From the NCBI GenBank assembly GCA_003138815.1, contig PLHD01000013.1, forward strand, positions 71,003-123,158: 52,156 nt of DNA. Direction: 5' to 3'. Shown here piece after piece: positions 11,474 to 30,200 of this stretch. Within the stretch, counting starts at the first letter, position 1, and each line of letters starts with the position of its first letter. The position numbers were made by a program, and so were the translations under genes. Source of the stretch: Acidimicrobiaceae bacterium. GTDB taxonomy: Bacteria > Actinomycetota > Acidimicrobiia > Acidimicrobiales > RAAP-2. The notes under the pieces are model-generated. The model worked only from the letters and a program-made list of their open reading frames with translations. It made no database searches and was not told the DNA's origin.

Positions 11474-12105
11474 GGAGTGGCTCCTTGCTCGCTGCGCCGG
11501 GCCGCCCAGCGCGTGAAGAGGCGCTCCTCGCGCTCGACCTCGTCGAGGGCCAGCACCAGCGTGTGGAGCTCGGCCTTGAGCCAGGGGAGCCGGTCGCGCT
11601 CGATGGCGCGCAGGCGTCGGCGGGTGGAGGCCAGCTCGGTCTCGACCGCGCCTAGGGCGCTGCGGGCGACGGCGAGGCGTGCCGCGGCACCGAGGGCCCG
11701 GCGATGGGCCAGCGCGGACGGCCCGACGGCCGCGTTGAAGGACGCCAGGTCGGTGGCGTCGAGGGGTGCAGGCGTGACTCGAGCCTCGTCGGGGTGCACG
11801 ACGCCCATGGTGTTGCGCCACGAGATCGAGACCTCGGCGAGTCCCGACGTCTGGGCGCCCGCGAGCCGGGTCGAGGAGGCACCGCCCAGAGCGCCGGCCC
11901 GGGTGGACCAGAGCTCGGCCTCGGCCTGGGCGGTCGCCCACGCGCTGCTGGCCTCTTCGAGGTGCCGGACGAGCCGGCGCCGCTCGCGAGAGAGCAGCTG
12001 CTGCTTCTGGCCGAGCAGGTCGATCCCGTGGGTCGCGGTGGCGATCCGCTCGAGCAGCCAGGCCCGTCCGGCCCGTCCGGGAGGAGCCTGCTTAGCCATG
12101 GTCAT
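11470..12105 (-). CDS. atpD: V/A-type ATPase subunit D (central stalk)
   Basis: The protein is about 211 aa and almost entirely helical, with long N- and C-terminal coiled-coil segments (L-L-G-Q-K-Q-Q-L-L-S-R-E-R near the start; L-A-S-T-R-R-R-L-R-A-I-E-R near the end) around a short central domain. That is the shape of subunit D, the rotor shaft inside the A3B3 head. Its position directly after subunit B is the usual one in V/A-ATPase operons. The start is uncertain among GTG 12108, ATG 12105 and ATG 12099; all overlap the end of the B gene (stop at 12092). It ends with ATGA overlap into uspA. Confidence 0.82.
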   Translation of the reverse strand: MTMAKQAPPGRAGRAWLLERIATATHGIDLLGQKQQLLSRERRRLVRHLEEASSAWATAQAEAELWSTRAGALGGASSTRLAGAQTSGLAEVSISWRNTMGVVHPDEARVTPAPLDATDLASFNAAVGPSALAHRRALGAAARLAVARSALGAVETELASTRRRLRAIERDRLPWLKAELHTLVLALDEVEREERLFTRWAARRSEQGATP

Positions 12106-13570
12106 CACCGGAGGGTTCCGGGGCTTCGCCCGTCTCGGCCGCGGGACCGTCGGCCTTTCGCAGGCTGCCGCGGTAGTGGGCGGCGATGCTCGCGGCGGGC
12201 ATCATCGTGAGCTCGCGTTCGGGCAGCACCGAGATGACGCCCCACGCGCGCTCGAAGGTCTCGGGCATCGTTCGCGCCTCGTCCGGCGACTGGTTGACGA
12301 GATCGCGGTAGAAGGCGTCCTCGAAGTCGAGGTAGATGCGGTCGGTTTCGGTGAGGGCATCGGCGCCGATCAGGTCGGCCAGCTCCCTGGCGGCGCGCGA
12401 GCGGGCGAGGGCCGCGATGATCTGGGCCGCCAGCGCCATGTGGTCGGCGCGCGTTCGTCCCTCACCCACGCCCTTGCGCATGAGCCGCGAGAGCGTCGAG
12501 AGCACGTCGACGGGAGGATAGACGCCGCTGGCCTGGACGTCGGGCGACAGCACGATCTGCCCCTCGGTGATGTAGCCGGTGAGGTCGGGGACCGGGTGGG
12601 TGATGTCGCCGCCGGGCATCGTGAGCACCGGCACGAGCGTGACCGACCCCGCGTGCCCGCGGATCCGCCCGCAGCGTTCGTAGAGCGAGGCCAGGTCGCT
12701 GTAGAGGTAGCCGGGGTAGGCGCGCCGTCCCGGCACCTCGCCGCGGGCGGCCGAGACCTCGCGCACCGCCTCGCAGTAGCTGGTCATGTCGGCCAGTATG
12801 ACGAGCACGTGCTGGTCGCGTTCGAAGGCCAGGTACTCGGCGATGGTGAGTGCGACGCGCGGCGTGAGTACGCGCTGGACGACCGGGTCGTCGGCCGTGT
12901 CGAGCACGAGCACGAGGTCGCCCGACGCGGCGCGGGACTCGAGCACTTCGCGCATCGTCGCGGCATCGGCGTGGGTGAGTCCCATGGCGGCCACGACGAC
13001 CTTGAAGTTCTCGCCGGCGACGTTGGCCTGCGCCGCGATCTGCGTGGCGAGCTGGAGGTGGGGCAGCCCGGCCGAGGAGAATACCGGGAGCTTCTGTCCG
13101 CGCACCAGGGTCGCCAGCGAATCGATCACCGAGACGCCGGTGAAGACCGGGTCGCTCGGCACGTCGCGTTGGCTGGGGTTGAGCGGCGAGCCGTTGACCG
13201 TGCGGCGCTCGCTGGCGAGCATCGGAGGACCTCCGTCGAGGGGCTCGCCCATCCCGTTCCAGACGCGCCCGAGCCAGCCGTCACCGACGGGGATGTCGAA
13301 CGGACGGCCCTCGAAGGCGGTGGAGACGAGGTCGGGGTCGATGCCACCGGTGCCCTGAAGCACCTCGACGATGGCGGTGTCGCCGCTGACCTCGAGCACC
13401 AGACCGTGACGCAGCTCGCCCGAGGGCAGGCGGACCCGGGCGATCTCGTCCCATCCCACTCCTTCGACGCCGTGCACGACGAGCAGCGGTCCGCCGACCT
13501 GGCTCGCGCCGGAGTACTCGAGGGGTGCCAAGGGTTCGGGCGGCCCGCCGCTCGCCGGGACGGCGCTCAC
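12092..13570 (-). CDS. atpB: V/A-type ATPase subunit B (non-catalytic head subunit)
   Basis: This 492-aa protein has the family blocks ASQVGGPLLVV, GDGWLGRVWNGMGEPLDGG, DPVFTGVSVIDSLATLVRG and RRAYPGYLYSDLASLYERC. As expected for a non-catalytic B subunit, the Walker A position reads FSSAGLPHLQLATQI, with no GKT. It forms the alternating A3B3 hexamer with subunit A in the cytoplasmic head. The GTG start (13568-13570) overlaps the TGA of subunit A (GTGA), and its 3' end overlaps subunit D. The N-terminus carries about 20 extra Pro/Ala-rich residues. It is clearly V/A-type and not F-type beta. Confidence 0.93.
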   Translation of the reverse strand: MSAVPASGGPPEPLAPLEYSGASQVGGPLLVVHGVEGVGWDEIARVRLPSGELRHGLVLEVSGDTAIVEVLQGTGGIDPDLVSTAFEGRPFDIPVGDGWLGRVWNGMGEPLDGGPPMLASERRTVNGSPLNPSQRDVPSDPVFTGVSVIDSLATLVRGQKLPVFSSAGLPHLQLATQIAAQANVAGENFKVVVAAMGLTHADAATMREVLESRAASGDLVLVLDTADDPVVQRVLTPRVALTIAEYLAFERDQHVLVILADMTSYCEAVREVSAARGEVPGRRAYPGYLYSDLASLYERCGRIRGHAGSVTLVPVLTMPGGDITHPVPDLTGYITEGQIVLSPDVQASGVYPPVDVLSTLSRLMRKGVGEGRTRADHMALAAQIIAALARSRAARELADLIGADALTETDRIYLDFEDAFYRDLVNQSPDEARTMPETFERAWGVISVLPERELTMMPAASIAAHYRGSLRKADGPAAETGEAPEPSGDDHG

Positions 13571-15300
13571 GGCTCGCTCGCCATCCGCGCCAGGACCTCG
13601 TCGCGCAGCCGGGTGACGCCCTCGGCGTCGTCAGGTCCGGTCTCGTCGCGCGCGCGGGTGACCGTGCTGAGGTCGATCTCCTCCACGGCCGACGCCGGCA
13701 GTCCGCCCTCGATGAGCGAGAGGCACTTGTCGTGGACGCTGAGCACCATGTCGAGCAGGGCGGCCTGCTTGGCCGGGCTGCAGTAGGCGTCGTTCTCGCT
13801 CATCGCGCTCTGCTGGAGGATTGCCTCGCGCAGCAGGCGCCCCGTCAGCAGCACGATGCGCTCGCGCGCCGGCAGTGCCCCCAGTCCCACGAGCTCGACG
13901 ACCGACGAGAGGCGGTCGGCCTCGGCGAGCAGCGCGAGCGCCTGGGCGCGCGCTTCGACCCAGCCGCTTCGACCCTGGGTGGCGTGCCAGTTGGCGATGG
14001 AGGCGTCGTCGAGGCTGAACGAGTGGCGCCAGGTGACCGCGGGGTAGTGGCGCGCGTACGCGAGGTCGCGGTCCAGCGACCATAGGCAGCGGACGTAGCG
14101 CACGGTCTGGGAGGTGACCGGCTCGGTCATGTCGCCGCCCGCTGGTGAGATCGCGCCGATGAGGGTCACCGATCCCTCGGTACCGCCGAGGGTCGTCACC
14201 CGCGACGCGCGCTCGTAGAAGGCGGCCAGCGAGGACGACAGGCTGGCCGGGTAGCCCTCCTCGGCGGGCAGTTCGCCGCTGCGCGACGAGAACTCCCGCA
14301 TGGCCTCGGCCCAGCGCGACGTGGAGTCCGCGAGCACCACCACGCGGTACCCCATGTCGCGGAAGTACTCGGCGACGGTCATGCCGGTGTAGACGCTCGC
14401 CACCCGCGCCATGACCGGCATGTTGGAGGTGTTGGCGATGACCACGGTTCGCTCGCGCAGGCTGGCGCCGGTCGCGGGATCGTTCAGGGCGGTGAGGTCG
14501 GCCATGGCGTCGGCGAGCTCGTTGCCCCGCTCGCCGCATCCGATGAAGACGACGACCTCGACGTCGGCCCACTTGACGATCTGCTGGAGCAGCATTGTCT
14601 TACCCGTTCCGAATCCCCCCGGCACCGCGGCGGTCGCGCCGTGGGCGATGGGGAAGAAGAGGTCGACGACCCGCTGGCCGGTGACCAGGGGGGCGAAGGG
14701 GCGCAGCCGCTCGCGGACCGGACGGGGCCAGCGCACCGGCCACTCCTCCCAGAGGTTCACGGCGCGTCCGGCGACGGTGGCGACCACGTCGTCGTCACCG
14801 GTCGCGCCGGGTCCGGCGAGCCAGGTGAGGGCCCCGTGCACGTCGGGCGGGACCAGCACGCGGTGCACGAAACCGCTCCCGGTCGTCACCGTGCCGAGCG
14901 TCGCTCCGGGCGAGAGCACCGTCCCAACGTCGATCGACGCGGGCGCGAATGGCCATGAGGCGCCTGACGGGTGCTCGGCGAGCGCCCCGGGAGTGAGCCA
15001 GGTCGGGGCCTCGGCGAGGGGCCTGAGGAGTCCGTCGAAGACGCCGCCCAGGAGGCCAGGACCGAGCCGCGCCGACAGTGGACGAAGGCTCGAGACCGCC
15101 ACGTCGCCGACGCGCAGGCCCCCCGTGTACTCGAAGGCCTCGGCCGTGAGCAGCCCGTCGCGAATGGAGACGACCTCTGCCGGGATGCGCAGGGGCCCCA
15201 CCTCGACCACGTCGAGTGCCGCTACGCCGGACAGGCCGGCCACTTCGACGAGCGGTCCGTTCACCCGAACGACGCGGCCGGTTGCGGCGCCGACGCTCAT
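13567..15300 (-). CDS. atpA: V/A-type ATPase catalytic subunit A
   Basis: This 577-aa protein is the ATP-hydrolysing or ATP-synthesising subunit of the V/A head. Walker A is PGGFGTGKT at residues 227-235, and the catalytic-glutamate block is IGCGERGNELADAM. LADSTSRWAEAMREFSSRSG and EEGYPASLSSSLAAFYERA are A-subunit signatures. The non-homologous region that distinguishes A from F-type beta is present at about residues 110-190 (SWPFAPASIDVGTVLSPGA). The start is ATG 15298-15300, which overlaps the TGA of subunit E as ATGA; a GTG 6 nt upstream is in frame. Length is normal for the family. Confidence 0.95.
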   Translation of the reverse strand: MSVGAATGRVVRVNGPLVEVAGLSGVAALDVVEVGPLRIPAEVVSIRDGLLTAEAFEYTGGLRVGDVAVSSLRPLSARLGPGLLGGVFDGLLRPLAEAPTWLTPGALAEHPSGASWPFAPASIDVGTVLSPGATLGTVTTGSGFVHRVLVPPDVHGALTWLAGPGATGDDDVVATVAGRAVNLWEEWPVRWPRPVRERLRPFAPLVTGQRVVDLFFPIAHGATAAVPGGFGTGKTMLLQQIVKWADVEVVVFIGCGERGNELADAMADLTALNDPATGASLRERTVVIANTSNMPVMARVASVYTGMTVAEYFRDMGYRVVVLADSTSRWAEAMREFSSRSGELPAEEGYPASLSSSLAAFYERASRVTTLGGTEGSVTLIGAISPAGGDMTEPVTSQTVRYVRCLWSLDRDLAYARHYPAVTWRHSFSLDDASIANWHATQGRSGWVEARAQALALLAEADRLSSVVELVGLGALPARERIVLLTGRLLREAILQQSAMSENDAYCSPAKQAALLDMVLSVHDKCLSLIEGGLPASAVEEIDLSTVTRARDETGPDDAEGVTRLRDEVLARMASEP

Positions 15301-15851
15301 GACCACAGCTCGGCGATCTCGTCGCCCATGGACGGCAGCTCTCGCTCTATGAGCGCCTCGACGCTCAGGTCCAGCCGCCGCCGTCCGCTTCGCGCGACGA
15401 TGCCTGGCGCTTGCGCCGCCGCCTCCATCTCGGCGTCATCGCCGAGCCGCTCGCGGGCGTGCTGACCGAGGCGCGCCGTCAGGGCAGTCGCTTGGGGCGA
15501 GTCAACGAGACCCGTGACGCGAGCCTGCGCCTGCTCGCGCACGTCCTGGTAGACGCCGCGCTGCGCGCCGAGCACCTCCTGGCGGGCTGCGAGCCGGGCA
15601 TCGGCCACGACCGACGACGCCAGACGGCGCGCCGTTGCGGCGCCGTCGGCACGGGCCGACTCGATCAGTTCCTCGCCTTGACGTCCAGCCTCGTCGAGGA
15701 CTGCGTTCGCCCGCGCGTCGGCGTCGGCGAGGATCCGGTCGGCAAGCTGTGCGGCCTGAGCCGCGAGGGCGCCCGCCACTGGTGCCAGGCCGCGGTCGAG
15801 CCCCGCCCTGCTCGTTCTCGCGCCGCTGGCCGCGGCCGGGATGGTCGTCAC
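15297..15851 (-). CDS. atpE: V/A-type ATPase subunit E (peripheral stalk)
   Basis: This 184-aa protein has a long Ala/Arg/Glu-rich helix in the first half (QLADRILADADARANAVLDE) and a compact C-terminal domain that ends EALIERELPSMGDEIAELW. That matches subunit E of the peripheral stator, which pairs with G/H and holds the head. The start is GTG 15849-15851, overlapping the TGA of subunit F (GTGA); the upstream open frame to 15968 is Arg-rich shadow of the F gene. Sequence conservation of E is low, so the call leans on its position between F and A and on its architecture. Confidence 0.78.
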   Translation of the reverse strand: MTTIPAAASGARTSRAGLDRGLAPVAGALAAQAAQLADRILADADARANAVLDEAGRQGEELIESARADGAATARRLASSVVADARLAARQEVLGAQRGVYQDVREQAQARVTGLVDSPQATALTARLGQHARERLGDDAEMEAAAQAPGIVARSGRRRLDLSVEALIERELPSMGDEIAELWS

Positions 15852-16072
15852 GTCGACATCTCCACGACGAGGGGTTCTCTCGCGCCGCCGAGCGCCGCGC
15901 CGCCGAGCGCCGCGGCCGCGGCCCTGGTGACCAGGACGAGCGAAACGTCCCGGTCCAGGCACGACCACGCCCGGCGTACCTCGTCGGGGCTCTCGGCCGC
16001 GACCGCGACGGCGCCGGCCAGGGCGTAACCCTGGATCATCACCGACTCACCGAGCACGACCACGCGTCCCAC
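15848..16072 (-). CDS. atpF: V/A-type ATPase subunit F (small central-stalk subunit)
   Basis: This is a 74-aa protein. It opens with a hydrophobic strand, a gly-rich turn and an ALAGA helix (VVVLGESVMIQGYALAGA), followed by AESPDEVRRAW and a strand D-V-S-L-V-L-V-T. This is the Rossmann-like fold of subunit F, which sits on the D shaft. At 74 aa it is shorter than the usual 100 or so, and the C-terminal helix is brief. The start is GTG 16070-16072, 6 nt after the subunit K stop; the end overlaps subunit E. Assignment rests on the fold pattern and gene order. Confidence 0.72.
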   Translation of the reverse strand: MGRVVVLGESVMIQGYALAGAVAVAAESPDEVRRAWSCLDRDVSLVLVTRAAAAALGGAALGGAREPLVVEMST

Positions 16073-16078
16073 CGCTGC

Positions 16079-17876
<1,798 letters not shown>

Positions 17877-17895
17877 GCGCGCCGGTTCGAGCGCG

Positions 17896-18819
17896 TCACG
17901 CCACGGCATCGAGCACTTCGATCCCGCGACCGGCGCGCGCCGCGATCTCCAGGGCCGCGCGCAGCCGCCACGCGTCGGCCACCTGGGCACAGACCGCCGC
18001 GACCACGGTCGCTGGCCCCGCGCCCCCCCGCTGGACCCTGTCCTGCGCGTCGGCCCAGAGCCGGCCCCACCAGCGGGCCTCGCCGGCCCACAGGTCTTGG
18101 GGCTCCGCGATGCCCTCCAGGACGGGCACGAGATGCGAGGGCAGCGTCCCTGCGAGGTCTGACAGGGACCTCGCAGCGAGCACACGGGGTCCCAGGACCG
18201 CTCGGACGTTCGCAGCCGTCGCCGAGATTGGCTCGAGGGTCACTCCCGCGACGACGACGCGGGCCAGGACGAGCGCGGCGTAGGACTCGGCCCATTCGGC
18301 CGCTTCGGGAACGCTTTCGACGACCCGACGGACGAACGCGAACTGCAGGGCAATCCTCATCGCTCCGCCGTCGAGCGAGCCGGGGTCGCCCCAGGGAGAG
18401 CGCCGCAGCGCCTCGCGCAGTCCTCCCATTCCCGCGACGGCATTGGAGCGCGTCACGCTGGCGAGCGAACCCAGATCGTAGGGCTCGGCGGCGTCTCGGC
18501 CCTCGACGCGGGCGAGCTCCCCGCTGAGGTTCGCCAGCTCGAAACCGCCGGCGAGCACGTGGAGCCGCGAGGCGCCGAGCGGGGGACACCAGCCGGCGAG
18601 GACGCGCAGGTTCCGCAGCACCGTGGCGAACAGCGCACGCTCGCTGGCAGCGAGGTTCAACCCGAGGTGGATCCGCTCGCCGTAGCCGGACGCGGCGAGT
18701 ACGGCGAGCGCGCCATCGAGCGAGCCCGCGCTGGCCACTTCACGCGCGCCGGCCGGTCCCACACAGTGGCTCGCGAGGCTGCGGCTGCGCACCTGCGCGG
18801 CGACCCAGCCCGTGCTCAC
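17896..18819 (-). CDS. atpC: V/A-type ATPase subunit C (rotor socket; V-type d homologue)
   Basis: This 307-aa soluble protein is rich in Ala and Leu helices. V-A-A-Q-V-R-S-R-S-L starts it, and R-N-L-R-V-L-A-G-W and L-E-P-I-S-A-T-A-A-N-V-R lie further on. This pattern, its size and its place before subunit I and after G/H fit subunit C/d, the funnel that couples the central stalk to the K ring. The start is GTG 18817-18819, overlapping the TGA of the upstream gene (GTGA). Sequence similarity within this family is low, so position carries much of the weight. Confidence 0.7.
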   Translation of the reverse strand: MSTGWVAAQVRSRSLASHCVGPAGAREVASAGSLDGALAVLAASGYGERIHLGLNLAASERALFATVLRNLRVLAGWCPPLGASRLHVLAGGFELANLSGELARVEGRDAAEPYDLGSLASVTRSNAVAGMGGLREALRRSPWGDPGSLDGGAMRIALQFAFVRRVVESVPEAAEWAESYAALVLARVVVAGVTLEPISATAANVRAVLGPRVLAARSLSDLAGTLPSHLVPVLEGIAEPQDLWAGEARWWGRLWADAQDRVQRGGAGPATVVAAVCAQVADAWRLRAALEIAARAGRGIEVLDAVA

Positions 18820-19524: not shown

Positions 19525-20433
19525 ATGAGTGAGGTCATTGCAAGTGATGGGGCCGGCGAACTTCGGGTTGGCTTCGTCGGCCTAGGGACGATGGGTACGC
19601 TGATGGCCGTCAATCTCGCGCGAGCGGGATTCGCGCTCACGGTCTGGAACCGCACGCCCGGGAGGGTTCAGGAACTCCTCGAGCAGGGAGCGACCCGGGC
19701 CACCAGCCCCGCCGAGTTGGCCAGGTGCTGCGACGTGGTGGTCGCGTGCCTCACGGACTCGCCGCAGGTCGAGGCTGTCCTCTTCGGCCCCGACGGACTC
19801 GCCGAGGGTCTGGCCCCCGGCTCCCTGTTCATCGACTGCTCGACCATCAGCCCGGTGAAGGCTGCGCAGTTCGACCAGCGCCTCGCGGCCCAGGGCGTCA
19901 CCATGCTCGATGCCCCCGTGTCGGGCGGGACGGAGGGGGCCAGGCTCGGGACCCTCACCATCATGGTGGGGGGCCGGCCGGGCGACGTGGAGCGAGCGGG
20001 CGGGGTGCTGAGGGCAATGGGCCAGACGGTGACGCACCTCGGGCCGGTCGGCGCGGGTCAGTGGGCCAAGGCCATCAACCAGGTGATCCTGTGCGGGGTC
20101 TACCTGGCGGTGGCCGAAGGCGTCACGCTGGGACTCAAGGCTGGTCTCGACGTCGAGAAGGTCGTCGGCGCCTTGAAGGGCGGCGCTGCCGGGTCGTGGG
20201 TCCTTTCGAATCGCGCCGATCGCATGGTCACCGACGCGTATCCCCTCGGATTCAAGATCTCACTGCACCGAAAGGACCTCGCAATCGCTCTCGAGCTGGC
20301 CCGTGAGGTCGGGGCGGTCATGCCGGTCACCTCCATGGCGGCCACGTTCGAGGATGGGCTCATCGCCCAGGGCTACGGTGACGACGACAACTCGGCCCTG
20401 GCCCGTCCGATTCGGTGGCTCTCGGGCCTGTAG
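19525..20433 (+). CDS. NAD(P)-dependent beta-hydroxyacid dehydrogenase (3-hydroxyisobutyrate dehydrogenase family)
   Basis: This 302-aa protein has an N-terminal Rossmann motif VGFVGLGTMGTLMAVNLARA and the substrate block DAPVSGGTEGARLGTLTIMV. The catalytic lysine region is GAGQWAKAINQ, and the cofactor-side lysine lies in GFKISLHRKDL. These are the four signatures of the beta-hydroxyacid dehydrogenase family (3-hydroxyisobutyrate, tartronate semialdehyde and similar). Which acid is used cannot be told. The ATG at 19525 has gaggagg upstream. It is divergent from the V/A-ATPase operon and 76 nt upstream of moaB. Confidence 0.88.
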   Translation: MSEVIASDGAGELRVGFVGLGTMGTLMAVNLARAGFALTVWNRTPGRVQELLEQGATRATSPAELARCCDVVVACLTDSPQVEAVLFGPDGLAEGLAPGSLFIDCSTISPVKAAQFDQRLAAQGVTMLDAPVSGGTEGARLGTLTIMVGGRPGDVERAGGVLRAMGQTVTHLGPVGAGQWAKAINQVILCGVYLAVAEGVTLGLKAGLDVEKVVGALKGGAAGSWVLSNRADRMVTDAYPLGFKISLHRKDLAIALELAREVGAVMPVTSMAATFEDGLIAQGYGDDDNSALARPIRWLSGL

Positions 20434-20509
20434 GCCGCCATCGCGCGGTTGCGGCGCCGGGACCGGAGAGGGCGCTGATCGAGGGCGCTTCATCACCTGC
20501 GCTCGGGCC

Positions 20510-21016
20510 ATGACTCACGAGGCCAAGGTCGTCACCATCTCCGATTCCGTGCACGGCGCCCGCAACGAGGACCGGGCCGGGCCCCTCCTCGCATCACGTC
20601 TCGAGGACGCCGGCTTCCGGGTCGTCGATCGGCGAGTGGTGCCCGACGGGGTCGAACCGGTGGCCTCGGTCCTGCGTGAGCTCGCCATGGACATCGCCGG
20701 CCTCATCGTTACGACCGGGGGGACGGGATTCTCCCAGCGCGACCTGACCCCCGAGGCGACGCTGGAAGTGCTCGATCGCGAGGCCTCCCGCCTCGCTGAG
20801 GCGATGCGGTCGGCGAATCCTCTGGGCCGTCTTTCGAGGGGTCGGGCCGGCACCGTCGGCAGGGCGCTGGTCATCAATACGCGAGGATCGCCCGCCGGGG
20901 CCGTCGAGTGCCTCGAGGCGGTCCTGGACGTACTCGCCCACGCCCTCGACCTGCTGCGCGGTGAGGCGTCTCAGCACCCGCCGGACACGGGGGGCAGGAC
21001 CGCGACCTCGTCCTGA
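20510..21016 (+). CDS. moaB: Molybdenum cofactor biosynthesis protein MoaB/MogA-type
   Basis: This 168-aa protein adenylylates molybdopterin ahead of metal insertion. The family blocks are VVTISDSVHGARNEDRAGP, then LIVTTGGTGFSQRDLTPEA (the TGGTG pterin/nucleotide loop), and GRALVINTRGSPAGAVECL. It looks intact. The ATG is at 20510. The last 46 bases overlap the 3' end of the oppositely oriented moeA-moaD relic, so the 15 or so C-terminal residues may have been altered by the rearrangement next door. Confidence 0.9.
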   Translation: MTHEAKVVTISDSVHGARNEDRAGPLLASRLEDAGFRVVDRRVVPDGVEPVASVLRELAMDIAGLIVTTGGTGFSQRDLTPEATLEVLDREASRLAEAMRSANPLGRLSRGRAGTVGRALVINTRGSPAGAVECLEAVLDVLAHALDLLRGEASQHPPDTGGRTATSS

Positions 21017-21788
21017 GCGCCGACTCGGTGGAGCGGATCGGCCGCCCCTCCGTTCACCCAGACCTGGCTGCGCGCCAGCACGGCGGCGAACTCAGGCCAG
21101 TGACGCGCCTGCGCCTCACGAAGGACATCTGCGACCGTGTCGGCGTCGATCCCCAGGTCGACTGGCACGAAGCCGGACTGGCGCAGCAAGGCCAGGAGCG
21201 CTGGTCGGTTCGCGTCGCGGATCTTACCGTCGGCGAGCTCGTCGAGCGTGTCGGCGAGTTCGTTGCCCGTCGAGAGCACCCCGACTCGGGGACGCGGGTG
21301 CACCGAGATCGACCCGATTCCCTGGCTCGCCAGCACGCCCAGGTGCGCGGGTCCCAACTCCTTCCCCACCCCGACGTCGCTCCCGGCGCGACGGACGAAC
21401 TCTCCCACCGGGATGCTCCGAGGGATCACCACGGCGAGGCCGCCCGATTCGGCGGTCGTCTCCTCGATCATGCAGACGCCGTCGGCGCCTTCGGGAACCG
21501 GTGCCCCGGCCATTATGCGAACGGCTTGGCCCGGTGCGACTCGCACGGAGGCGGCGTCGCCCGCCATGACCGAGCCGACCACTCGAGCCTGACCGGTGGA
21601 GCCTGGACGTCGACCGACCGGAGGGCGTAACCGTCCATGGAGGAGTTCGCGAAGCCCGGGACTGGCTCCCTCGCCACGATCTCCTCGCCGACGACACAGC
21701 CGAGCGCGTCGTCCAGCGGGAGCTACACGACGGGCAGGGGGCGCAGCGTCAACAGCACGAACCGCTGGGCTTCGTCGAGGGGAATCAC
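20971..21788 (-). pseudogene. moeA: Broken moeA fused to the tail of moaD
   Basis: From GTG 21788 the frame begins V-I-P-L-D-E-A-Q-R-F-V, a normal MoeA start, and meets TAG at codon 22 (21723-21725). Beyond it the same frame continues with PLDDALGCVVGEEIVAREPV and GFANSSMDGYALRS, the MoeA domain I signature. Near 21580-21590 a 1-nt loss shifts the frame to RVVGSVMAGDAASVRVAPGQ, VRIMAGAPVPEGADGV and RPRVGVLSTGNELADTLDEL. About 45 residues later MoeA stops and the last 50 codons read LARSQVWVNG, then DEVAVLPPVSGG, the C-terminal half of MoaD with its terminal Gly-Gly (followed by Cys). So there is a nonsense codon, a frameshift and a deletion that removed the MoeA C-terminus and the MoaD N-terminus. 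MoeA inserts molybdate and MoaD carries the dithiolene sulfur. Neither can be made from this locus. Confidence 0.85.
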
Positions 21789-21834
21789 GGTGCTCGCCCG
21801 GTGAGGCTCCCCGCTCGGCGGCTGCGACCCGCAC

Positions 21835-22299
21835 TCATTGTTCGGGGACCTCGATGATGTCGTGGGCGTCCTCGCTCCACGCCGAGCCCTCATCCCACAA
21901 CTCGAGTTTCCACATCGGCACCGACTCCTTCAGGGTGTCGATGCAGAACTGCGCGGCGTCGAAGGCTTCGCGACGGTGCGGGCAGGATACGGCGACGATC
22001 ACCGCGATCTCGCCCAGTTCGACCCTTCCGATCCGGTGATGGATGGCCACCGCGGCGAGCATCGGCCAGCGCGTGCGAGCCGCCGCCACGATCTTGGTGG
22101 CGGCCTCCTCGGCCAGCGCGACGCTGGTCTCGTACTCCAACGCCTCGACGTTCTGGCGAGTGCCAGAGGTGCGCCGGACGGTGCCGCAGAAGGTGACGAC
22201 CGCACCGCACTCGGGGCGCGTGGCCCAGGCGGAGACGGCCTCGAGCGACAGCGGGGACCGCGAAAGGGATATCCAGACCGTCGTTGGTGTCGATTCCAC
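21835..22299 (-). CDS. moaE: Molybdopterin synthase catalytic subunit MoaE
   Basis: This 154-aa protein is the large subunit of molybdopterin synthase, which transfers sulfur from MoaD thiocarboxylate to precursor Z. Family blocks are VVTFCGTVR, LEYETSVALAEEAATKIV, AIHHRIGRVELGEIAVIVAV, HRREAFDAAQFCIDTLK and the catalytic-lysine signature KESVPMWKLELWDEGSAW. It looks intact, although its MoaD partner next door is broken. The start is GTG 22297-22299. It heads the moeA-moaD relic (47 nt gap) and is divergent from the hydroxylase gene. Confidence 0.93.
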   Translation of the reverse strand: MESTPTTVWISLSRSPLSLEAVSAWATRPECGAVVTFCGTVRRTSGTRQNVEALEYETSVALAEEAATKIVAAARTRWPMLAAVAIHHRIGRVELGEIAVIVAVSCPHRREAFDAAQFCIDTLKESVPMWKLELWDEGSAWSEDAHDIIEVPEQ

Positions 22300-22455: not shown

Positions 22456-24984
22456 ATGAGTGCTGAATCGACGAGCGTGACGTTGGCCGTGAACGGCGTT
22501 GACCGGTCAGTGCGTGCGACGGCGACGCTGCTCTCGGTTCTGCGCTCGGAACTGGGTCTGACGGGCGCCAAGCCAGGCTGCGGTGAGGGCGCGTGCGGAT
22601 CGTGCACGGTTCTCGTCGACGGCCAGCCGGTGAAGGCCTGCCAGCAGCAGGCCGGCGACGTGGCCGGCCGCAGCGTCACGACCGTCGAAGGACTCGCCAG
22701 CGCCGGGCGGCTGCACCGTGTCCAACAGGCGTTCGCCGAGGTCGGTGCTGCGCAGTGCGGGTACTGCACTCCGGGAATGATCATGTCGGTCGTGGCGCTC
22801 TTACAGCGTGAGCCCGACCCGGACGCCGCCGCCATCGATGAGGCGTTGGAGGGAAACGTCTGCCGGTGCGGCAGCTACCCTCAGATCCGTCGGGCGGTGC
22901 ATCGCGCCGTCGAGATGGAGACGGACTCGGGCCCGGGCCCGGGCAACGAGGTATCCAGCGACGCCGCGAGGGACCGCCAGGCGATCCCCGAGCCCGCGAC
23001 GCCGCGACTGCGGCCCGCTCGGCCGTGGGACATGACCGAGCCCGAGAGGTGCGAGTGGTTCGACATCCTGGGTGATGGCCTCATGGTCGTGCTGCCCCCG
23101 CCCCCGGTCGCGGCGAGCGCGTGGACCACCGGCGGTGGCGCCTGGCTGCACGTCACGAGCGACGGAGCGGTGACCGCGTTCACCGGCAAGGTTGACGTCG
23201 GCCAGGACAACTGCACCGCGTTGCGGCTCCTCGTCGCTGAGGGGCTGAGGGTTCCCTTGAGCAGCGTTCGCCTCGCGATGGGTGACACCGATCTCTGCCC
23301 GTACGACATGGGCACGTTCGGGAGTCGCTCGATGCCCGACGCCGGCAGCGCCCTGGCCAAGGTGGCGGCCTTCGCGCGCGCGGCGCTGCCCATCGCCGCC
23401 GGCGAACGCCGGCTGGAGGTCGTCACCGGCGAGCCCGACGTCATCGCGCCCAGCGAGTGGCGAGCCGCGGGAAGGGCCCACGTGCCCGAAGGGATGGTTG
23501 GCGCGGTCACGGGTTCGCGCCGCTTCGTCTCGGACCTCACGATGCCCGGGCTTCGCTACGGCGCGGTCCTGCGCGCGCCCGTGGTGGGGACGACCCTGCG
23601 CGACGTGGACGCCGGCGGCCTGGCTGGCTTCGAAGGCGTCGAACTCGTGCGCACCCACAAGGTGGCCGGAGTCGTGGCTGGTGACCCGATGAGCGCCCGT
23701 CTCGCGTTGGCGAGCCTGAAGGCCGAGTGGGACGTTCCCGACGCCCCGTCGCGGTCCGACCTGGAGACGTTCCTGCGCACGCATCCGGTGGCCGAGACCG
23801 GCGGCTGGGGCCAGGCGATGCTCGACGAGCAGGGCAGCCCCGAGGCGGTCCTAGCGGCGTCGGATATCCGGGTTCGGGCCACGTACACCACGGCCTACAT
23901 CGCTCCCGCGGCGCTCGAGACGCGCGCGGCGCTGGCGATCTGGGACGACGACGGACGCCTGACGATCTGGGTCGGGACCCAGACGCCGTTCGCCACACGC
24001 GCGCAGGTCGCCGCCGAGCTGGACGTGGCCGAGGAGCGGGTGCGCGTGATCGTGCCGCCGACCGGCGGAGGGTTCGGCGGCAAGCACGGCGGCGGCGTCG
24101 CCCTGGAAGCGGCCGTCCTGGCCCGAGAGGTCGGCGGGCCGGTCAAGGTCTCGTGGTCGCGCCACGAGGAGTTCACGTCGGGCATGCTGCGCCCGGCGGC
24201 GGTGATCGACGTGGACAGCGCGGCAGCGCCGGACGGCACGCTGAGCGCCTGGACGTTCACCAACATCAACTCGGGTCCGGCCGCGATCGCGATGCCGTAC
24301 GAGGTGGCGAACCAGCGCCTCGAGTACCGTCCGGCCGCGAGTCCATTGCTCCAAGCCTCGTACCGGGCGCTGGCCGCGACGGCCAACAACTTCGCGCGCG
24401 AGTCGCAGATCGACGAGCTGGCGCACCGCCTGGGCCTGGACCCGGTGGAGTTCCGCCTGCGTAACCTCGACGACGCGCGCCTGGCCGCGGTCTTGACCGG
24501 CGCGGCCGAACGCTTCGGGTGGAGCGGTGTCGCGGGCGAGGGCCAAGGCATCGCCCTGGCGCTCGAGAAGGGCGGACGGGTGGCCACGGCGGCCCAGGTC
24601 GCCGAGGTCGATGGACATCTGAAGGTCGTGCGCCTCGTCACGGCGTACGAGTGCGGAGCCGTGGTGAACCCGCGCACGGTGATCAACCAGATTGAAGGGG
24701 CCACGATCATGGCCCTGGGCGGAGCGCTGTTCGAGGCTATCGACTTCGCCGACGGCGTCATCACGAACGGTTCCTTCTCGAGCTACCGTGTCCCGCGGAT
24801 CACCGACGTTCCGCCCATCGAGGTCCTGCTGCTGGACCGGCCCGATCTGGCGTCGGCCGGCGCGGGCGAGACTCCGATGATCTGCGTCGCCCCGGCGATC
24901 GCCAACGCCGTCTTCGACCTCACGGGCCGACGCGTGCGGTCGTTGCCCCTGGACCTCGAGGGCACCGCCGGTCCTTCGAGCTAG
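22456..24984 (+). CDS. Single-chain molybdenum hydroxylase: [2Fe-2S] domain fused to molybdopterin subunit
   Basis: This 842-aa protein joins two normally separate subunits. Residues 1-155 are the small iron-sulfur subunit: C42-G-E-G-A-C47-G-S-C50 with C62 for the plant-type cluster, and C101-G-Y-C104 with C136-R-C138 for the second. After a Pro/Ala linker, residues 210-842 are a molybdopterin-binding subunit of isoquinoline 1-oxidoreductase/nicotinate dehydrogenase layout, in which a segment of the second Mo domain comes first (VTAFTGKVDVGQDN, MGTFGSRSMPDAG). The Mo-site blocks are PPTGGGFGGKHGGG, then SYRALAATANNFARES, and the catalytic glutamate is in GAGETPMICVAPAIANA. About 50 residues seem to be missing between FARAAL and the WRAAG block compared with relatives. 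There is no FAD-subunit gene, so electrons probably go to a cytochrome or ferredoxin. No signal peptide is seen. The ATG at 22456 follows ggagaagg. Confidence 0.88.
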   Translation: MSAESTSVTLAVNGVDRSVRATATLLSVLRSELGLTGAKPGCGEGACGSCTVLVDGQPVKACQQQAGDVAGRSVTTVEGLASAGRLHRVQQAFAEVGAAQCGYCTPGMIMSVVALLQREPDPDAAAIDEALEGNVCRCGSYPQIRRAVHRAVEMETDSGPGPGNEVSSDAARDRQAIPEPATPRLRPARPWDMTEPERCEWFDILGDGLMVVLPPPPVAASAWTTGGGAWLHVTSDGAVTAFTGKVDVGQDNCTALRLLVAEGLRVPLSSVRLAMGDTDLCPYDMGTFGSRSMPDAGSALAKVAAFARAALPIAAGERRLEVVTGEPDVIAPSEWRAAGRAHVPEGMVGAVTGSRRFVSDLTMPGLRYGAVLRAPVVGTTLRDVDAGGLAGFEGVELVRTHKVAGVVAGDPMSARLALASLKAEWDVPDAPSRSDLETFLRTHPVAETGGWGQAMLDEQGSPEAVLAASDIRVRATYTTAYIAPAALETRAALAIWDDDGRLTIWVGTQTPFATRAQVAAELDVAEERVRVIVPPTGGGFGGKHGGGVALEAAVLAREVGGPVKVSWSRHEEFTSGMLRPAAVIDVDSAAAPDGTLSAWTFTNINSGPAAIAMPYEVANQRLEYRPAASPLLQASYRALAATANNFARESQIDELAHRLGLDPVEFRLRNLDDARLAAVLTGAAERFGWSGVAGEGQGIALALEKGGRVATAAQVAEVDGHLKVVRLVTAYECGAVVNPRTVINQIEGATIMALGGALFEAIDFADGVITNGSFSSYRVPRITDVPPIEVLLLDRPDLASAGAGETPMICVAPAIANAVFDLTGRRVRSLPLDLEGTAGPSS

Positions 24985-25108: not shown

Positions 25109-26062
25109 TTGTCGACCCGGTCCAAGCCCGCGCACAGTTCACGCTGGGCGTCACCCCGCCGTCTGGCCGTGTCAAGCACGGTGGTCTCCCTCACGTTGGC
25201 GGGGACCCTCGCCGCGCCCTTCACCGGTTCAGCGACCTCAGCGGCGTCGGCCAAGCATTCGGGCACCGTCGATGTGCTCTACGCCGGGTCCTTCCTCGAC
25301 CTCATGGAGCAGCAGATCGGCCCCGCCTTCCACAAGGCCTCTGGCTACACGGTGAGCGGATTCTCCGCCGGCTCTTCGGCGCTGGCGAGTGAGATCGCCG
25401 GCGGCACCCAGGTCGGTGACGTCTTCATCAGTGCCTCGTCCAGCGTCAACCAATCACTCGAGGGTGCCTCGAACGGTGGCTGGGTCTCCTCCTACGACGA
25501 GTTCGGCACGTCACCGCTGGTGCTCGGCTACAACCGCTCCTCGAGGTTCGCCGAGGCGCTGAGGACCACGCCCTGGTACGACGTGGTCGATCGGCCCGGA
25601 TTCCTGCTCGGGCGAACCGACCCGGCCACGGATCCCAAGGGCGTCCTGGCGGTCGACGCGTTGAGCGGCGTCGCGCTCAGCTACGACGTGCCGGCGCTCG
25701 GGGCCCTGGCGACCTCGACCTCGAACATCTTTCCCGAGACGACGCTCGTCGGCGAGCTCCAGGCGGGCCAGCTGGACGCCGGATTCTTCTACGGGGTCGA
25801 GGCCGCCGCCGCGCACATCAAGACCGTGGCGCTCACGGGGACCAGCCTCGAGGCCGAGTACACCGTGGCCGTACTGAACCGGGCACCTCACGAGGCGGCC
25901 GCCAAGGCCTTCGTGAAGTTCCTGCTCGGCGCGAACGGTCGCAGGATCCTGAAGGAAAATGGCGTTGACCCGATCAGCCCGGCCAAGGTCGTCAAGCACT
26001 CTGCGGCATCGACCGCCGTGGCATCGTCGACGCGACCGACCACGACTAGCACGCGGTCGTAG
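25109..26062 (+). CDS. modA: Molybdate/tungstate-binding protein (ModA/WtpA-like), secreted
   Basis: This 317-aa protein has a twin-Arg-like basic start (S-P-R-R-L-A-V-S-S-T-V-V), a hydrophobic stretch and an Ala-rich cleavage region near residue 45. The mature part opens GTVDVLYAGSFLDLMEQQIG, and GFSAGSSALASEIAGG, GDVFISASSSVNQSL and FGTSPLVLGYNRSS follow. These are oxyanion-binding features of the extracellular family 1/WtpA group. It captures molybdate or tungstate for the ModBC fusion downstream. The start is TTG at 25109, preceded by ggaggtgg. A Thr/Ser-rich tail ends the protein. Its TAG overlaps the next gene's GTG by one base. Molybdate and tungstate cannot be told apart here. Confidence 0.88.
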   Translation: MSTRSKPAHSSRWASPRRLAVSSTVVSLTLAGTLAAPFTGSATSAASAKHSGTVDVLYAGSFLDLMEQQIGPAFHKASGYTVSGFSAGSSALASEIAGGTQVGDVFISASSSVNQSLEGASNGGWVSSYDEFGTSPLVLGYNRSSRFAEALRTTPWYDVVDRPGFLLGRTDPATDPKGVLAVDALSGVALSYDVPALGALATSTSNIFPETTLVGELQAGQLDAGFFYGVEAAAAHIKTVALTGTSLEAEYTVAVLNRAPHEAAAKAFVKFLLGANGRRILKENGVDPISPAKVVKHSAASTAVASSTRPTTTSTRS

Positions 26063-27945
26063 TGCCGGCGAGGCCGCTCAAGAGTCCCGTCGCGTGGCTG
26101 GGCAGCCTCGTCGTCCTGTACCTGGGACTTCCGCTGGCGGCCTTCGCGGTTCGCTTCCTATCAGCGCCGTCCCGCGGCTTCGGGGTCCCGGGACTGTTTC
26201 CGGCGTTGTGGGTGTCTCTCGTGTGTGCGACGATCTCGTTGGGCCTCATTACCTTGTTCGGGGTCCCGCTCGCGTACGTGCTGGCCCGCTCCAAGGGCCG
26301 AGCGGCCTCGGTCGCGGCGCTGGTCGTCCAGATTCCCCTGGCCCTGCCCCCGATCATGGCCGGGATCGTGCTCATCTACGTCGTCGGCCCCTACACCTTC
26401 CTGGGCCGACTCTTCGGCGGTCATCTCACCGACTCGATGATCGGGATCGTGCTCGCGATGACGTTCTGCTCGGCACCGTTCCTGATCGTGACCGCCCGCT
26501 CGTCATTCGCGATGGTGGATCAAGGGCTCCTGGACGTGGCCGCCACCCTGGGCCACTCGGAGTTCTCGCGTTTCATGCGTGTCGCCGTGCCGATGGCCGG
26601 GCCTGGAATCCGAGGGGGGATGCTCCTGGCGTGGCTACGGGCCTTCGGCGAGTACGGCGCGGTGATCATCCTCGCCTACAACCCGGCGTCACTGCCCGTC
26701 TACACGTACAACCAGTTCAGCGGCCGGGGGCTGCCCACCACCCTGGCGCCCACCGCGCTGGCGCTCGGGGTGGCCGTCGTCGTGGTGATGATCAGCCGGG
26801 TCAAATTCCCCAGGACCGATGGTGCGCGCGCCAGCGCCTCGGCGGCCCGTGCGCCGTCGCCGTCGCCGACCCAGCCCGTACGCTTCGCCGTCGACCACCA
26901 TCTCGGATCGTTTCATCTGGAGCTGTCGCACGATTCGGGTGCGAGCCACCTGGCCGTGCTGGGTCCCTCGGGCTCGGGCAAGTCCGCCCTGCTGCGGTGC
27001 CTGGTCGGGCTCTATGGTCGAGAGCCCGGGCCAGTCTGGTACGGCGACCAGCCGGTCCAGGACGTTGCGGTCGAGCAGCGCCGCGTGGGTTACGTCGCCC
27101 AGGGGTTCTCGCTGTACCCCCACCTCACGGTGTGGCGCCACCTGTTGTTCGCCAGGGGCGCCACGCCGGAACTGGCCGCCTACTGGCTCAATCACCTTCG
27201 CCTCGACGGCCTGGAGAGCCGGTACCCATCCGAGCTCTCGGGCGGGCAGCGCCAGCGGGTCGGCCTGGCCCAGGTCCTCTGCGAGAGCCCCCAGGTCCTG
27301 CTCCTGGACGAGCCGTTCTCCGCCCTCGACCTGCCGGTGCGCCTGGAACTTCGCCGCGAGCTTCGCCGCCTCCAGCACGAGACCGGACTCGCGACCGTAC
27401 TCGTCACGCACGACCCCGAAGAGGCCGCCTTCCTCTCCGAAGAGGTGATCGTCATCGCCAACGGCCGGGCGCTCCAATCCGGGGCGAGCCGCGAGGTGTT
27501 CACCCGTCCCGCGTCACCCGAAGTGGCCCGGCTGCTCGGCATCGCGAACATGCACCACGCGGTCGTCGCCTCGAGGCAGCGGATCGACGCGCACGGCGTC
27601 CTCATCGCGGTGGGCGACACCGACATCGCGACGGGCACCCCGGTGCTGTGGAGCGTGCGACCCGAAAGGGTGTCCGTGATCGCGGCCCCGGGTCAGGGCG
27701 AGCCGGCGATCGGCGAACGGTCCGGCGCTCCGATCGGAACGGTGCGCGACATCGCCGACGTGGGCGTGGCCGTGGACCTCTTCATCACCATGAGCCCGCT
27801 GTTCGAGCTTCAGGCCCGCGTGGTCGAACCGGGGAACCTTCGCGTGGGCGACCGGTGCCGCGTCGAGATCGCGCCGTCGGCGGTCTCGCTCTGGGCGCAA
27901 CCGTCCCAGGGCGAGGAGGCCGTCGGGTCGTATTCGCTCCGGTAG
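26062..27945 (+). CDS. modBC: Fused molybdate ABC transporter: ModB permease + ModC ATPase
   Basis: This 627-aa protein has residues 1-250 as a ModB-type permease with about six membrane segments and the EAA loop (LDVAATLGHSEFSRFMRVAV, then GGMLLAWLRAFGEYGAVIIL). Residues 275-480 form an ABC ATPase: Walker A GPSGSGKS, Q-loop GYVAQGFSLYPHLTV, signature LSGGQRQRVGLAQVL, Walker B LLLDEPFSALD and switch LVTHDPEEA. Residues 520-615 are a TOBE-like regulatory domain. The permease and ATPase genes are separate in most bacteria. The GTG start (26062-26064) shares its first base with the modA stop. It is convergent with the MerR-Mop gene. Confidence 0.9.
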   Translation: MPARPLKSPVAWLGSLVVLYLGLPLAAFAVRFLSAPSRGFGVPGLFPALWVSLVCATISLGLITLFGVPLAYVLARSKGRAASVAALVVQIPLALPPIMAGIVLIYVVGPYTFLGRLFGGHLTDSMIGIVLAMTFCSAPFLIVTARSSFAMVDQGLLDVAATLGHSEFSRFMRVAVPMAGPGIRGGMLLAWLRAFGEYGAVIILAYNPASLPVYTYNQFSGRGLPTTLAPTALALGVAVVVVMISRVKFPRTDGARASASAARAPSPSPTQPVRFAVDHHLGSFHLELSHDSGASHLAVLGPSGSGKSALLRCLVGLYGREPGPVWYGDQPVQDVAVEQRRVGYVAQGFSLYPHLTVWRHLLFARGATPELAAYWLNHLRLDGLESRYPSELSGGQRQRVGLAQVLCESPQVLLLDEPFSALDLPVRLELRRELRRLQHETGLATVLVTHDPEEAAFLSEEVIVIANGRALQSGASREVFTRPASPEVARLLGIANMHHAVVASRQRIDAHGVLIAVGDTDIATGTPVLWSVRPERVSVIAAPGQGEPAIGERSGAPIGTVRDIADVGVAVDLFITMSPLFELQARVVEPGNLRVGDRCRVEIAPSAVSLWAQPSQGEEAVGSYSLR

Positions 27946-28417: not shown

Positions 28418-29316
28418 CTAGCCTCCGATCATCGACATCGATCGCGCCGGTCGCAGGAACCCGGGTTGGTTGGTGGCGTGGCCCGGGAACTTCGCCCACA
28501 CGGCCTCCCGCAGCATCCTGGCGATTTCGCCGGCGCCGGCGCCGCCGCGCAGTACGTCGCGGGCCGAGCGCTCGTCATCGGAGAACGGGCAGTTTAGGAA
28601 CGCGCCGTCGGCCGTGAGGCGCAGTCGCTCGGCGGGCGCCGGCTCGCCATGGTCGCCGAGCGCTTCGAGGGGCCAGACCTGAGAGATCCGCTCGAAGACC
28701 TCCTGGCCCGGCACCAGCGACGACCGGTCCCACTGACCTTGCGCGTCCAGTGGCATGAACTCGATGAACCGGACGATCCGGCCGGTCTCGCGGGCGAAGG
28801 CGGCGAAGTCGAGGACCTCGTCGTCGCTCCTGCCGCGCAGCAGCACGACGTTGACCTTCAGCGGCAGGAGCCCCGCCGCCTCGGCCGCGTCCATTGCGCT
28901 GAGCACGGTGGCGAGGTCCCCGCGGCGGCGAATCGACTCGAAGCGGTCGGCCCGAAGGGAGTCACAGCTCACGTTCACCCGCTTCAACCCCGCTGCCGCG
29001 AGCCCCGCCGCCATCTTCGCGAGCTGCATTCCGTTGGTGGTGAGGGCCAGGTCCTCGAGGCCGATCGAGGTGAGGCGCGATACCAGGGAGGTGAGGTCCT
29101 TGCGCACGAGCGGCTCGCCGCCCGTAAGCCGGATCGAGGTCACGCCCAGGTCGCGGGCCACCGCCGCGACGCGGCCGATCTCCTCGTAGGAGAGCAACTG
29201 TGACCTGGGCAGGAACGTCATTCCCTCGTCGGGCATGTAGTAGACGCAGCGCAGGTTGCACCGGTCGGTGACCGAGATGAGCAGGTCGGTGTGGACCCGG
29301 CCGACTAGATAGGCAC
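28418..29316 (-). pseudogene. moaA: Damaged moaA (GTP 3',8-cyclase)
   Basis: The body is clearly MoaA: GRVHTDLLISVTDRCNLRC, TSIRLTGGEPLVRKDL, LALTTNGMQLAKMA, RVNVSCDSL, RFIEFMPLDAQG and the ending RPARSMSMIGG. Three lesions are visible. (1) The radical-SAM motif should be C-x3-C-x2-C, but the third Cys is Tyr (codon TAC, 29237-29239). (2) Near the C-terminus about 25 residues are missing before RLRLTADG, taking two of the three cysteines of the second 4Fe-4S cluster; only the Cys in FLNCPFSDDE remains. (3) The expected start (GTG 29316, preceded by aaaggaga) runs into TAG after three codons, with an apparent 2-nt insertion before the conserved frame resumes. An alternative upstream start could still make a chain, but it could not bind either cluster properly. 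MoaA makes the first pathway intermediate from GTP. Confidence 0.82.
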
Positions 29317-29457
29317 CGTCTCCTTTGCAAGATGATGCCACCTGAAGGCCGCTGAGATCTGGAGGGGTGTTTGCCCGCGAGAGTGCTCGCCACCTTGTCC
29401 TCGAATGCGCTGGCCGGCGCAGACCGATCGACGGATGCGGGAGTTGCAAGAGGCGTC

Positions 29458-29463
29458 TATAAA
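29458..29463 (+). promoter_or_regulatory. -10 box TATAAA for the MsrP-like gene
   Basis: TATAAA ends 8 nt before the ATG at 29472, with no Shine-Dalgarno between. The transcript is probably leaderless. Confidence 0.45.
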
Positions 29464-29471
29464 CTGCCCGC

Positions 29472-30200
29472 ATGCTTCGCAACCGCGGTCAATCGGCTGC
29501 CGGTGGGCAACCGCGTGGAATCGCCGTAGGGCGAAGGGTGTTCTTGGGCGTCGCGGCGCTGGGCGCGGTGGGAGTCGTCGTCGGAGCCAGCGTCCAGAAC
29601 TTCCTCGGCGACGTCTTCGGATCGGGATTCGCCAGCCTGCTGCCCGGCGGCGACCATTTCCGCATCTACACGATCACGGGCGCGTACCCAAAGGTGAGCC
29701 GCGACCGCTACCGACTCGAGGTCAGCGGACTAGTCGAGCGCCCCGCCATGCTCACGATGGATGACCTCGAGGCGATGCCCGCCACTTCGTTCGTCAAGAC
29801 CTTCCAATGCGTCACGGGCTGGAGGGTCCCCGGCGTCCATTGGCAAGGGGTCAGGCTCTCCGAGATCCTCGACACGGTCGGGGTGAAGCCCGGGGCGGTG
29901 GCCCTCAGCTTCGAGTCCTACGACCGCTCCGACAGCGAGAGCCTGACGCTCGAGCAGGCCCGCCTGCCCGATGTCATCGTGGCGTATCGGATGCTCGGCG
30001 GACCCGTCACCACCGAGCACGGCGGACCGGTGCGCCTCTACGTTGCGCCGATGTACGGCTACAAGTCGCTCAAGTGGCTTTCGGCCATCCGAGTCGTGGA
30101 CCAGGTCGTGCCCGGGTACTGGGAGCAGAATGGCTACCCCGTCAACGGCTGGCTGGACGGCACGACCGGATCCACGAATCCCGATCCCGGTCTCACCTAA
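29472..30200 (+). CDS. Molybdopterin-dependent oxidoreductase, sulfite oxidase/MsrP-like, Tat-exported
   Basis: This 242-aa protein has a Tat-like signal, V-G-R-R-V-F-L-G (Arg21-Arg22) followed by a hydrophobic stretch to residue 41. The catalytic domain has the sulfite-oxidase-fold Mo block VKTFQCVTGWRVPGVHWQGV with Cys113 as the Mo ligand, then LPDVIVAYRMLGGPVTTEHG and GGPVRLYVAPMYGYKSLKWL. Its size and single domain resemble MsrP/YedY (methionine-sulfoxide repair) and related small enzymes, not full sulfite oxidases, which carry a dimerisation domain. It should act outside the membrane. The partner cytochrome b gene follows 5 nt downstream. The substrate is unknown. Confidence 0.88.
   Translation: MLRNRGQSAAGGQPRGIAVGRRVFLGVAALGAVGVVVGASVQNFLGDVFGSGFASLLPGGDHFRIYTITGAYPKVSRDRYRLEVSGLVERPAMLTMDDLEAMPATSFVKTFQCVTGWRVPGVHWQGVRLSEILDTVGVKPGAVALSFESYDRSDSESLTLEQARLPDVIVAYRMLGGPVTTEHGGPVRLYVAPMYGYKSLKWLSAIRVVDQVVPGYWEQNGYPVNGWLDGTTGSTNPDPGLT

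Follow-up and report, generated by a model that had tools for sequence, protein, structure and literature searches.

The window, by which is meant the whole stretch of 52,156 nucleotides that was analysed (G000:C32:71003-123158), belongs to a draft genome of 2.53 Mb in 75 contigs, estimated to be 95.9% complete, and holds a cluster of molybdenum cofactor (Moco) genes. On the minus strand an open moaE (21835-22299), in which 0/26 genus-conserved columns are changed, is followed by the remains of moeA and moaD, and these are met by an open mogA/moaB gene on the plus strand (20510-21016), whose 3' end is antisense to that of moaD. Beyond moaE, on the plus strand, lie an unbroken molybdoenzyme gene of the xanthine dehydrogenase (XDH) family, whose single chain holds both the FeS and the Mo domains (22456-24984; 79% to G028:C57), a molybdate/tungstate ABC transporter binding protein gene (ModA/WtpA-like, 25109-26062) and a fused ABC transporter permease and ATPase gene (ModBC/WtpBC-like, 26062-27945). 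A moaA-like gene is found further along on the minus strand (28418-29482; 60% to the MoaA of contig C70 over 29302-28421). Upstream of the cluster, at 12095-18185 on the minus strand, are V/A-type ATPase genes, for two ATP-synt_ab proteins that have V/A C-terminal domains and for one V_ATPase_I protein.

The moeA gene has a GTG start at 21788-21786 on the minus strand and opens VIPLDEAQRFVLLTLRPLPVV before a stop, an in-frame TAG at codon 22 (21725-21723); one TAG is also found inside the MoeA_N profile match of the window. The N-terminal part, in its own frame, occupies 21585-21788 and covers MoeA_N positions 1-67. Homology to MoeA stays in this frame between 21788 and about 21585 and lies in another frame below about 21585. 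The shift shows both in the frame change of the matches and when the remnant is aligned with 19 MoeAs from other loci, and it places a one-base slip of the moeA frame near 21583-21592. The middle part (21148-21588), which holds the rest of MoeA_N and the first third of MoCF_biosynth, lies in the frame of a 287-codon open frame at 20971-21834 that is called fused here and whose first ~82 codons are outside the moeA frame. The last MoeA-like residues are GFVPVDLGI, with the final codon at 21150-21148. MoaD homology follows directly in the same frame as DADTVADVLREAQARHWPEF, from DADTVADVL, and continues to SGGC and a stop at 20971, so that the C-terminal 58 residues of MoaD are present (20971-21147) and the first ~21 are gone.

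The earlier note on this DNA had reported the TAG at codon 22, a loss of one nucleotide near 21584 and a deletion joining moeA in frame to moaD. The first two were confirmed, the second as the one-base slip described above. The joint is also real; its position had been misplaced, and the true joint, at about 21148/21147, lies ~30 bases upstream. DTVADVLREA, which had been taken as the end of MoeA, is MoaD sequence by comparison with locus L128 (IDADTVAAVLDEAKVRYG). When both frames were aligned to MoeA and MoaD profiles, as the note had proposed, MoeA_N was matched in two frames and ThiS at positions 21-76 of 76. In the fused frame itself the second part of MoeA_N and ThiS score above the Pfam cut-offs, and a partial MoCF_biosynth match (positions 1-48 of 144) falls just below, at 24.2 bits against a cut-off of 26.6. 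No single frame holds a full MoeA_N and a complete molybdopterin-binding domain, and the GGVSVG of the latter domain, present in 19/19 aligned MoeAs of other loci, is absent from the remnant; the ubiquitin-like domain of MoaD is not whole and its own start is gone. The profile matches, together with the order moaE-moeA-moaD against mogA that is found in many relatives, indicate that these are lesions of genes and more than a chance resemblance. Compared with relatives the lesions are disabling, and the remnant is classed as a pseudogene. The claim that moeA was killed by three separate events is thus supported by a nonsense codon, a slip and a deletion.

The undamaged layout can be seen in many relatives of the genus, in which moaE-moeA-moaD is followed by a mogA that meets moaD tail to tail. 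Molybdate transporter genes lie beyond the cluster in the three loci examined for them (G007:C172, G016:C60 and G022:C73), as does moaA in G007:C172 and G016:C60. Of 26 loci given for sizing the deletion, 18 fitted the motif pattern and were measured and 8 did not; the two points joined in the window are 634-774 bp apart in these 18 loci (median 639), so that ~640 bp have been lost. With this stretch went the rear half of moeA, GGVSVG included, and ~21 residues from the start of MoaD. In relatives, short GATCG-like similarity is found on either side of the joint, which may point to deletion by microhomology. At another locus (G069:C106, L185:1233-2583), from a genome that is 70% complete, moaD is short of its first residues, its match beginning at query position 35 of 85, and what is left of it extends over the end of moeA in a different frame; this is perhaps another deletion at the moeA/moaD boundary.

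The earlier note implied a threat to the cofactor itself, for which no support was found. The second moeA and moaD that it had proposed to search for in the full genome exist, both open, on contig C70, where moaE, moeA (425 aa), moaA and moaD (79 aa, ending GG) lie in that order, accompanied by XdhC-like and MocA-like genes. Contig C52 holds an open mogA and two moaC. The presence of open full-length equivalents elsewhere in the genome fits a redundant-copy pseudogene pair in the window, and for the genes looked at the Moco pathway appears complete without the window moeA and moaD. Apart from the window, MoeA_N is matched in the genome only on C70, with 52% protein identity to the window over the matched part. 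Of the two MoCoBD_1 enzymes in the genome, one lies next to the remnant and the other on C54.

The same contig C52 carries a 422-codon open frame (L201:9214-10482) in which an XDH-family C-terminal remnant, matching residues 646-809 of 842, continues in frame into the open mogA. Directly downstream are a remnant of a ModBC-type transporter gene and then the two moaC in a row, and the region has the look of another Moco cluster in a more advanced state of decay.

The lesions in the window might be assembly or consensus errors of the draft, in which case the real gene pair would be whole. The assembly is in 75 contigs, and one-base slips are frequent among consensus errors. However, three lesions of different kinds fall within one gene, the flanking parts of the cluster are open and stand in the expected order, a deletion joint between two genes would be an unusual consensus error, and the moeA on C70, with its 52% protein identity, is too distant for an assembler to have mixed up the two. 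Error in the draft is accordingly improbable as an explanation.

A survey of 99 genomes of the genus gives a MoeA_N match in 51, MoaE matches in 50, MogA matches in 51 (one of them, G083, only at E = 5e-4) and MoCoBD_1 matches in 23. The loci compared were 63 moeA loci, the window among them, from all 51 moeA-bearing genomes; two or three such loci are present in 10/51 genomes (22 loci) and one in 41/51. Broken Moco genes at moeA loci were found in 5/10 multi-locus genomes versus 1/41 single-locus genomes (Fisher p = 0.0006), a contrast that was defined after the loci were seen and that concerns moeA loci only. The damaged multi-locus genomes are G000, with the broken moeA/moaD of the window (C32); G028, with moaE in three frames (C29); G106, with moaD and mogA each in two frames (C30); G071, which is 71% complete, with a mogA fragment on C45 and a mogA match also on C102; and G109, with a moeA fragment on C14, one side of which lies within ~70 bases of a contig end. 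The one damaged single-locus genome is G069, with the missing moaD start on C106. The counts of broken genes do not include genes simply absent beside moeA (for example moaE and moaD at G022:C73, moaD and mogA at G074:C38), MoaE fragments at no moeA locus (a second copy at G063:C19, and G093:C173 and G026:C63, both seen as matches) or contig-end cuts (G001, G007:C63, G017, G023, G031, G065 and G100). The compared stretch does not reach moaD and mogA in six single-locus genomes at least (G089, G090, G091, G093, G096 and G102). Read in this way, the distribution fits decay of spare copies.

No MoeA_N match was found in the remaining 48/99 genomes, of which 27 are 1.8 Mb or smaller, versus 7/51 of those with a match (rounded sizes). 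The drafts vary in completeness, and G001 and G098 hold other Moco genes. Repeated loss of molybdenum use in the genus is likely.

The end of the MoaD remnant differs from the terminal Gly-Gly of the C70 copy in being SGGC (20971-20979). MoaD is present at 47 loci, counting the window: it stops at SGG in 40 and extends with Cys in five, and of the other two one is truncated by a contig end and the other is damaged. The four other Cys-extended MoaDs are at G010:C52 (L177), G014:C91 (L138), G022:C8 (L142) and G081:C37 (L180), and the residue after Gly-Gly is Cys in all five extended frames (GGCAEEP..., GGCN, GGCA, GGC and GGC). Because these four are otherwise open, the Cys alone is no sign of a lesion, and it was dropped as a candidate fourth one. 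For sulfur carriage by the four, trimming would have to free the Gly-Gly.

The 3' ends of moaD and mogA are convergent and overlap in 37/39 loci with both genes, the window included, mostly by 40 bases (examples are L128:5065-5101, L129:4920-4956, L132:7415-7451 and L134:4271-4307), and the MoaD tail is therefore antisense to coding sequence of mogA. The window mogA has changes at 6/52 genus-conserved columns, against three or fewer in 37 others (6/50 when the C52 copy is added), including NTPGSP to NTRGSP and EAPGL to EASRL. The C52 mogA is changed at 2/52, the same two columns as in G022:C73. With another copy on C52, the window mogA may be drifting or losing function.

The fused frame could also be a maintained new protein, made of the middle of MoeA and the tail of MoaD, with a role such as that of MoaE partner or decoy. 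The frame is open through the joint, the SGG of MoaD is retained, and the Cys that follows it is shared with the four otherwise open MoaDs. The earlier note had described the combination as one not known as a normal protein, and no other such chain was indeed seen; the joint is best read as one that is in frame by chance. The same fused chain in many related genomes, named in that note as a counter-indication, was looked for and not seen: there was no whole-length match to the fused ORF in 60 other genomes (47/61 genomes, own included, match the ORF, and only the own genome over its full length), no MoeA-MoaD chain at any further moeA locus in the genus, and none among 80 of 259 wider loci. 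One match among those 80 of 259, at L054, seemed to span the joint but is an ordinary MoeA whose alignment runs on beyond the joint point, and a conserved fusion was rejected. A separate MoaD-tail match is present in 8 of the 80 (of 259), no closer than 651 bp. Among the 80 of 259 listed, the best named matches of the remnant are from Acidimicrobiaceae and other actinobacterial draft genomes.

The openness of the frame may be a matter of chance. GC content is 70% over 20001-22000, a level at which stops are rare, and open frames of 200 and 202 codons are also present on the other strand there. The C52 remnant that runs in frame into mogA is read here as another such chance chain, which suggests that such frames arise by accident in this genome.

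The preservation of the remnant was judged at conserved columns, defined as those at least 95% identical in 56 near-full-length MoeAs. The window moeA is changed at 0/11 of these ahead of the slip and at 2/39 beyond it, with one of these two changes falling exactly at the slip. This total of 2/50 is no excess, being equalled or exceeded by 14/56 near-full-length MoeAs, and a 98% threshold gives the same outcome (2/39 in the window; 10/56 MoeAs equal or exceed). The moaD tail likewise shows no excess at its conserved columns (1/9 changed; 6/43 others equal or exceed), and the tree tip of the window is not exceptional, being the 8th longest of 57 in a placement that is weak (supports of 0.42-0.89 on the path to the tip, with one inner node without a value). 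Excess substitutions were thus set aside as proof of decay. Relaxed selection is not seen in the substitutions, and the death of the genes is shown by the lesions only, from which it would follow that moeA and moaD died recently.

The conserved columns of the fused chain (37/39 unchanged in the MoeA part, 8/9 in the MoaD part) could be taken to favour a new protein. However, the part of moeA outside the chain is no less conserved than the part inside, so preservation gives no reason to assume a selected fusion, with the reservation that the 11 columns of this internal control are few. Equal preservation inside and outside would speak for a young lesion over a selected new protein. With a MoaD part that lacks its first ~21 residues and a MoeA part that lacks the GGVSVG half added to the missing counterparts elsewhere, a maintained new protein is very improbable. 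Just as improbable is a specific version of it, in which a chain of ~200 residues with a GG-Cys MoaD tail, translated from an internal start after the slip, would still bind MoaE or the MoaD-activating enzyme and so tune the cofactor for the adjacent molybdoenzyme.

The window moeA-moaD is very probably a recently inactivated spare copy in a redundant Moco cluster. The ancestral cluster would have been of the kind found whole in relatives, with moaE-moeA-moaD and mogA tail to tail and, as in several of them, the transporter and moaA beyond. Other copies of the Moco genes would have released moeA and moaD from selection, and the deletion of ~640 bp could then have arisen by ordinary illegitimate recombination, with its in-frame joint a matter of chance. 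Neither remnant is expected to work. The window moaE, XDH-family enzyme and transporter stay open and would be served by cofactor from the C70 and C52 genes, although an open moaE that is itself redundant counts against decay of a spare copy.

The locus matters little by itself, and is an apparently young and clear example of the pruning of duplicated Moco clusters. The genus may offer a natural series for the loss of redundant cofactor genes with the served enzymes kept, given that 10/51 genomes are multi-locus and breakage is mostly there. The 287-codon frame should not be annotated as a MoeA-MoaD fusion protein.

Among known systems, the remnant resembles MoeA (molybdopterin molybdotransferase; PF03453, PF00994, PRK10680) in ~214 N-terminal codons, spread over two frames, and differs from it in its nonsense codon, its frame slip and the lack of the second half. 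It resembles MoaD (molybdopterin synthase small subunit; ThiS family PF02597; TIGR01682) in the C-terminal 58 residues with Gly-Gly, and differs in lacking the first ~21 residues and its own start and in the one Cys after Gly-Gly. MoaX, the natural MoaD-MoaE fusion of Mycobacterium tuberculosis, is reported to be a fused synthase that needs cleavage for activity (PMC4326299). MoaX is similar in being a Moco gene fusion with MoaD in a genome with several Moco gene copies, whereas the joint in the window has broken both partners. Natural Moco fusions such as MoaX therefore exist, and on present evidence the window chain is not one of them. Decay of duplicated genes occurs in bacteria, and the locus shares with it a redundant copy, several lesions and intact neighbours, no point of difference being noted. 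Ordinary decay of a duplicate, with the fused reading frame as an accident, is the most likely account of the locus.
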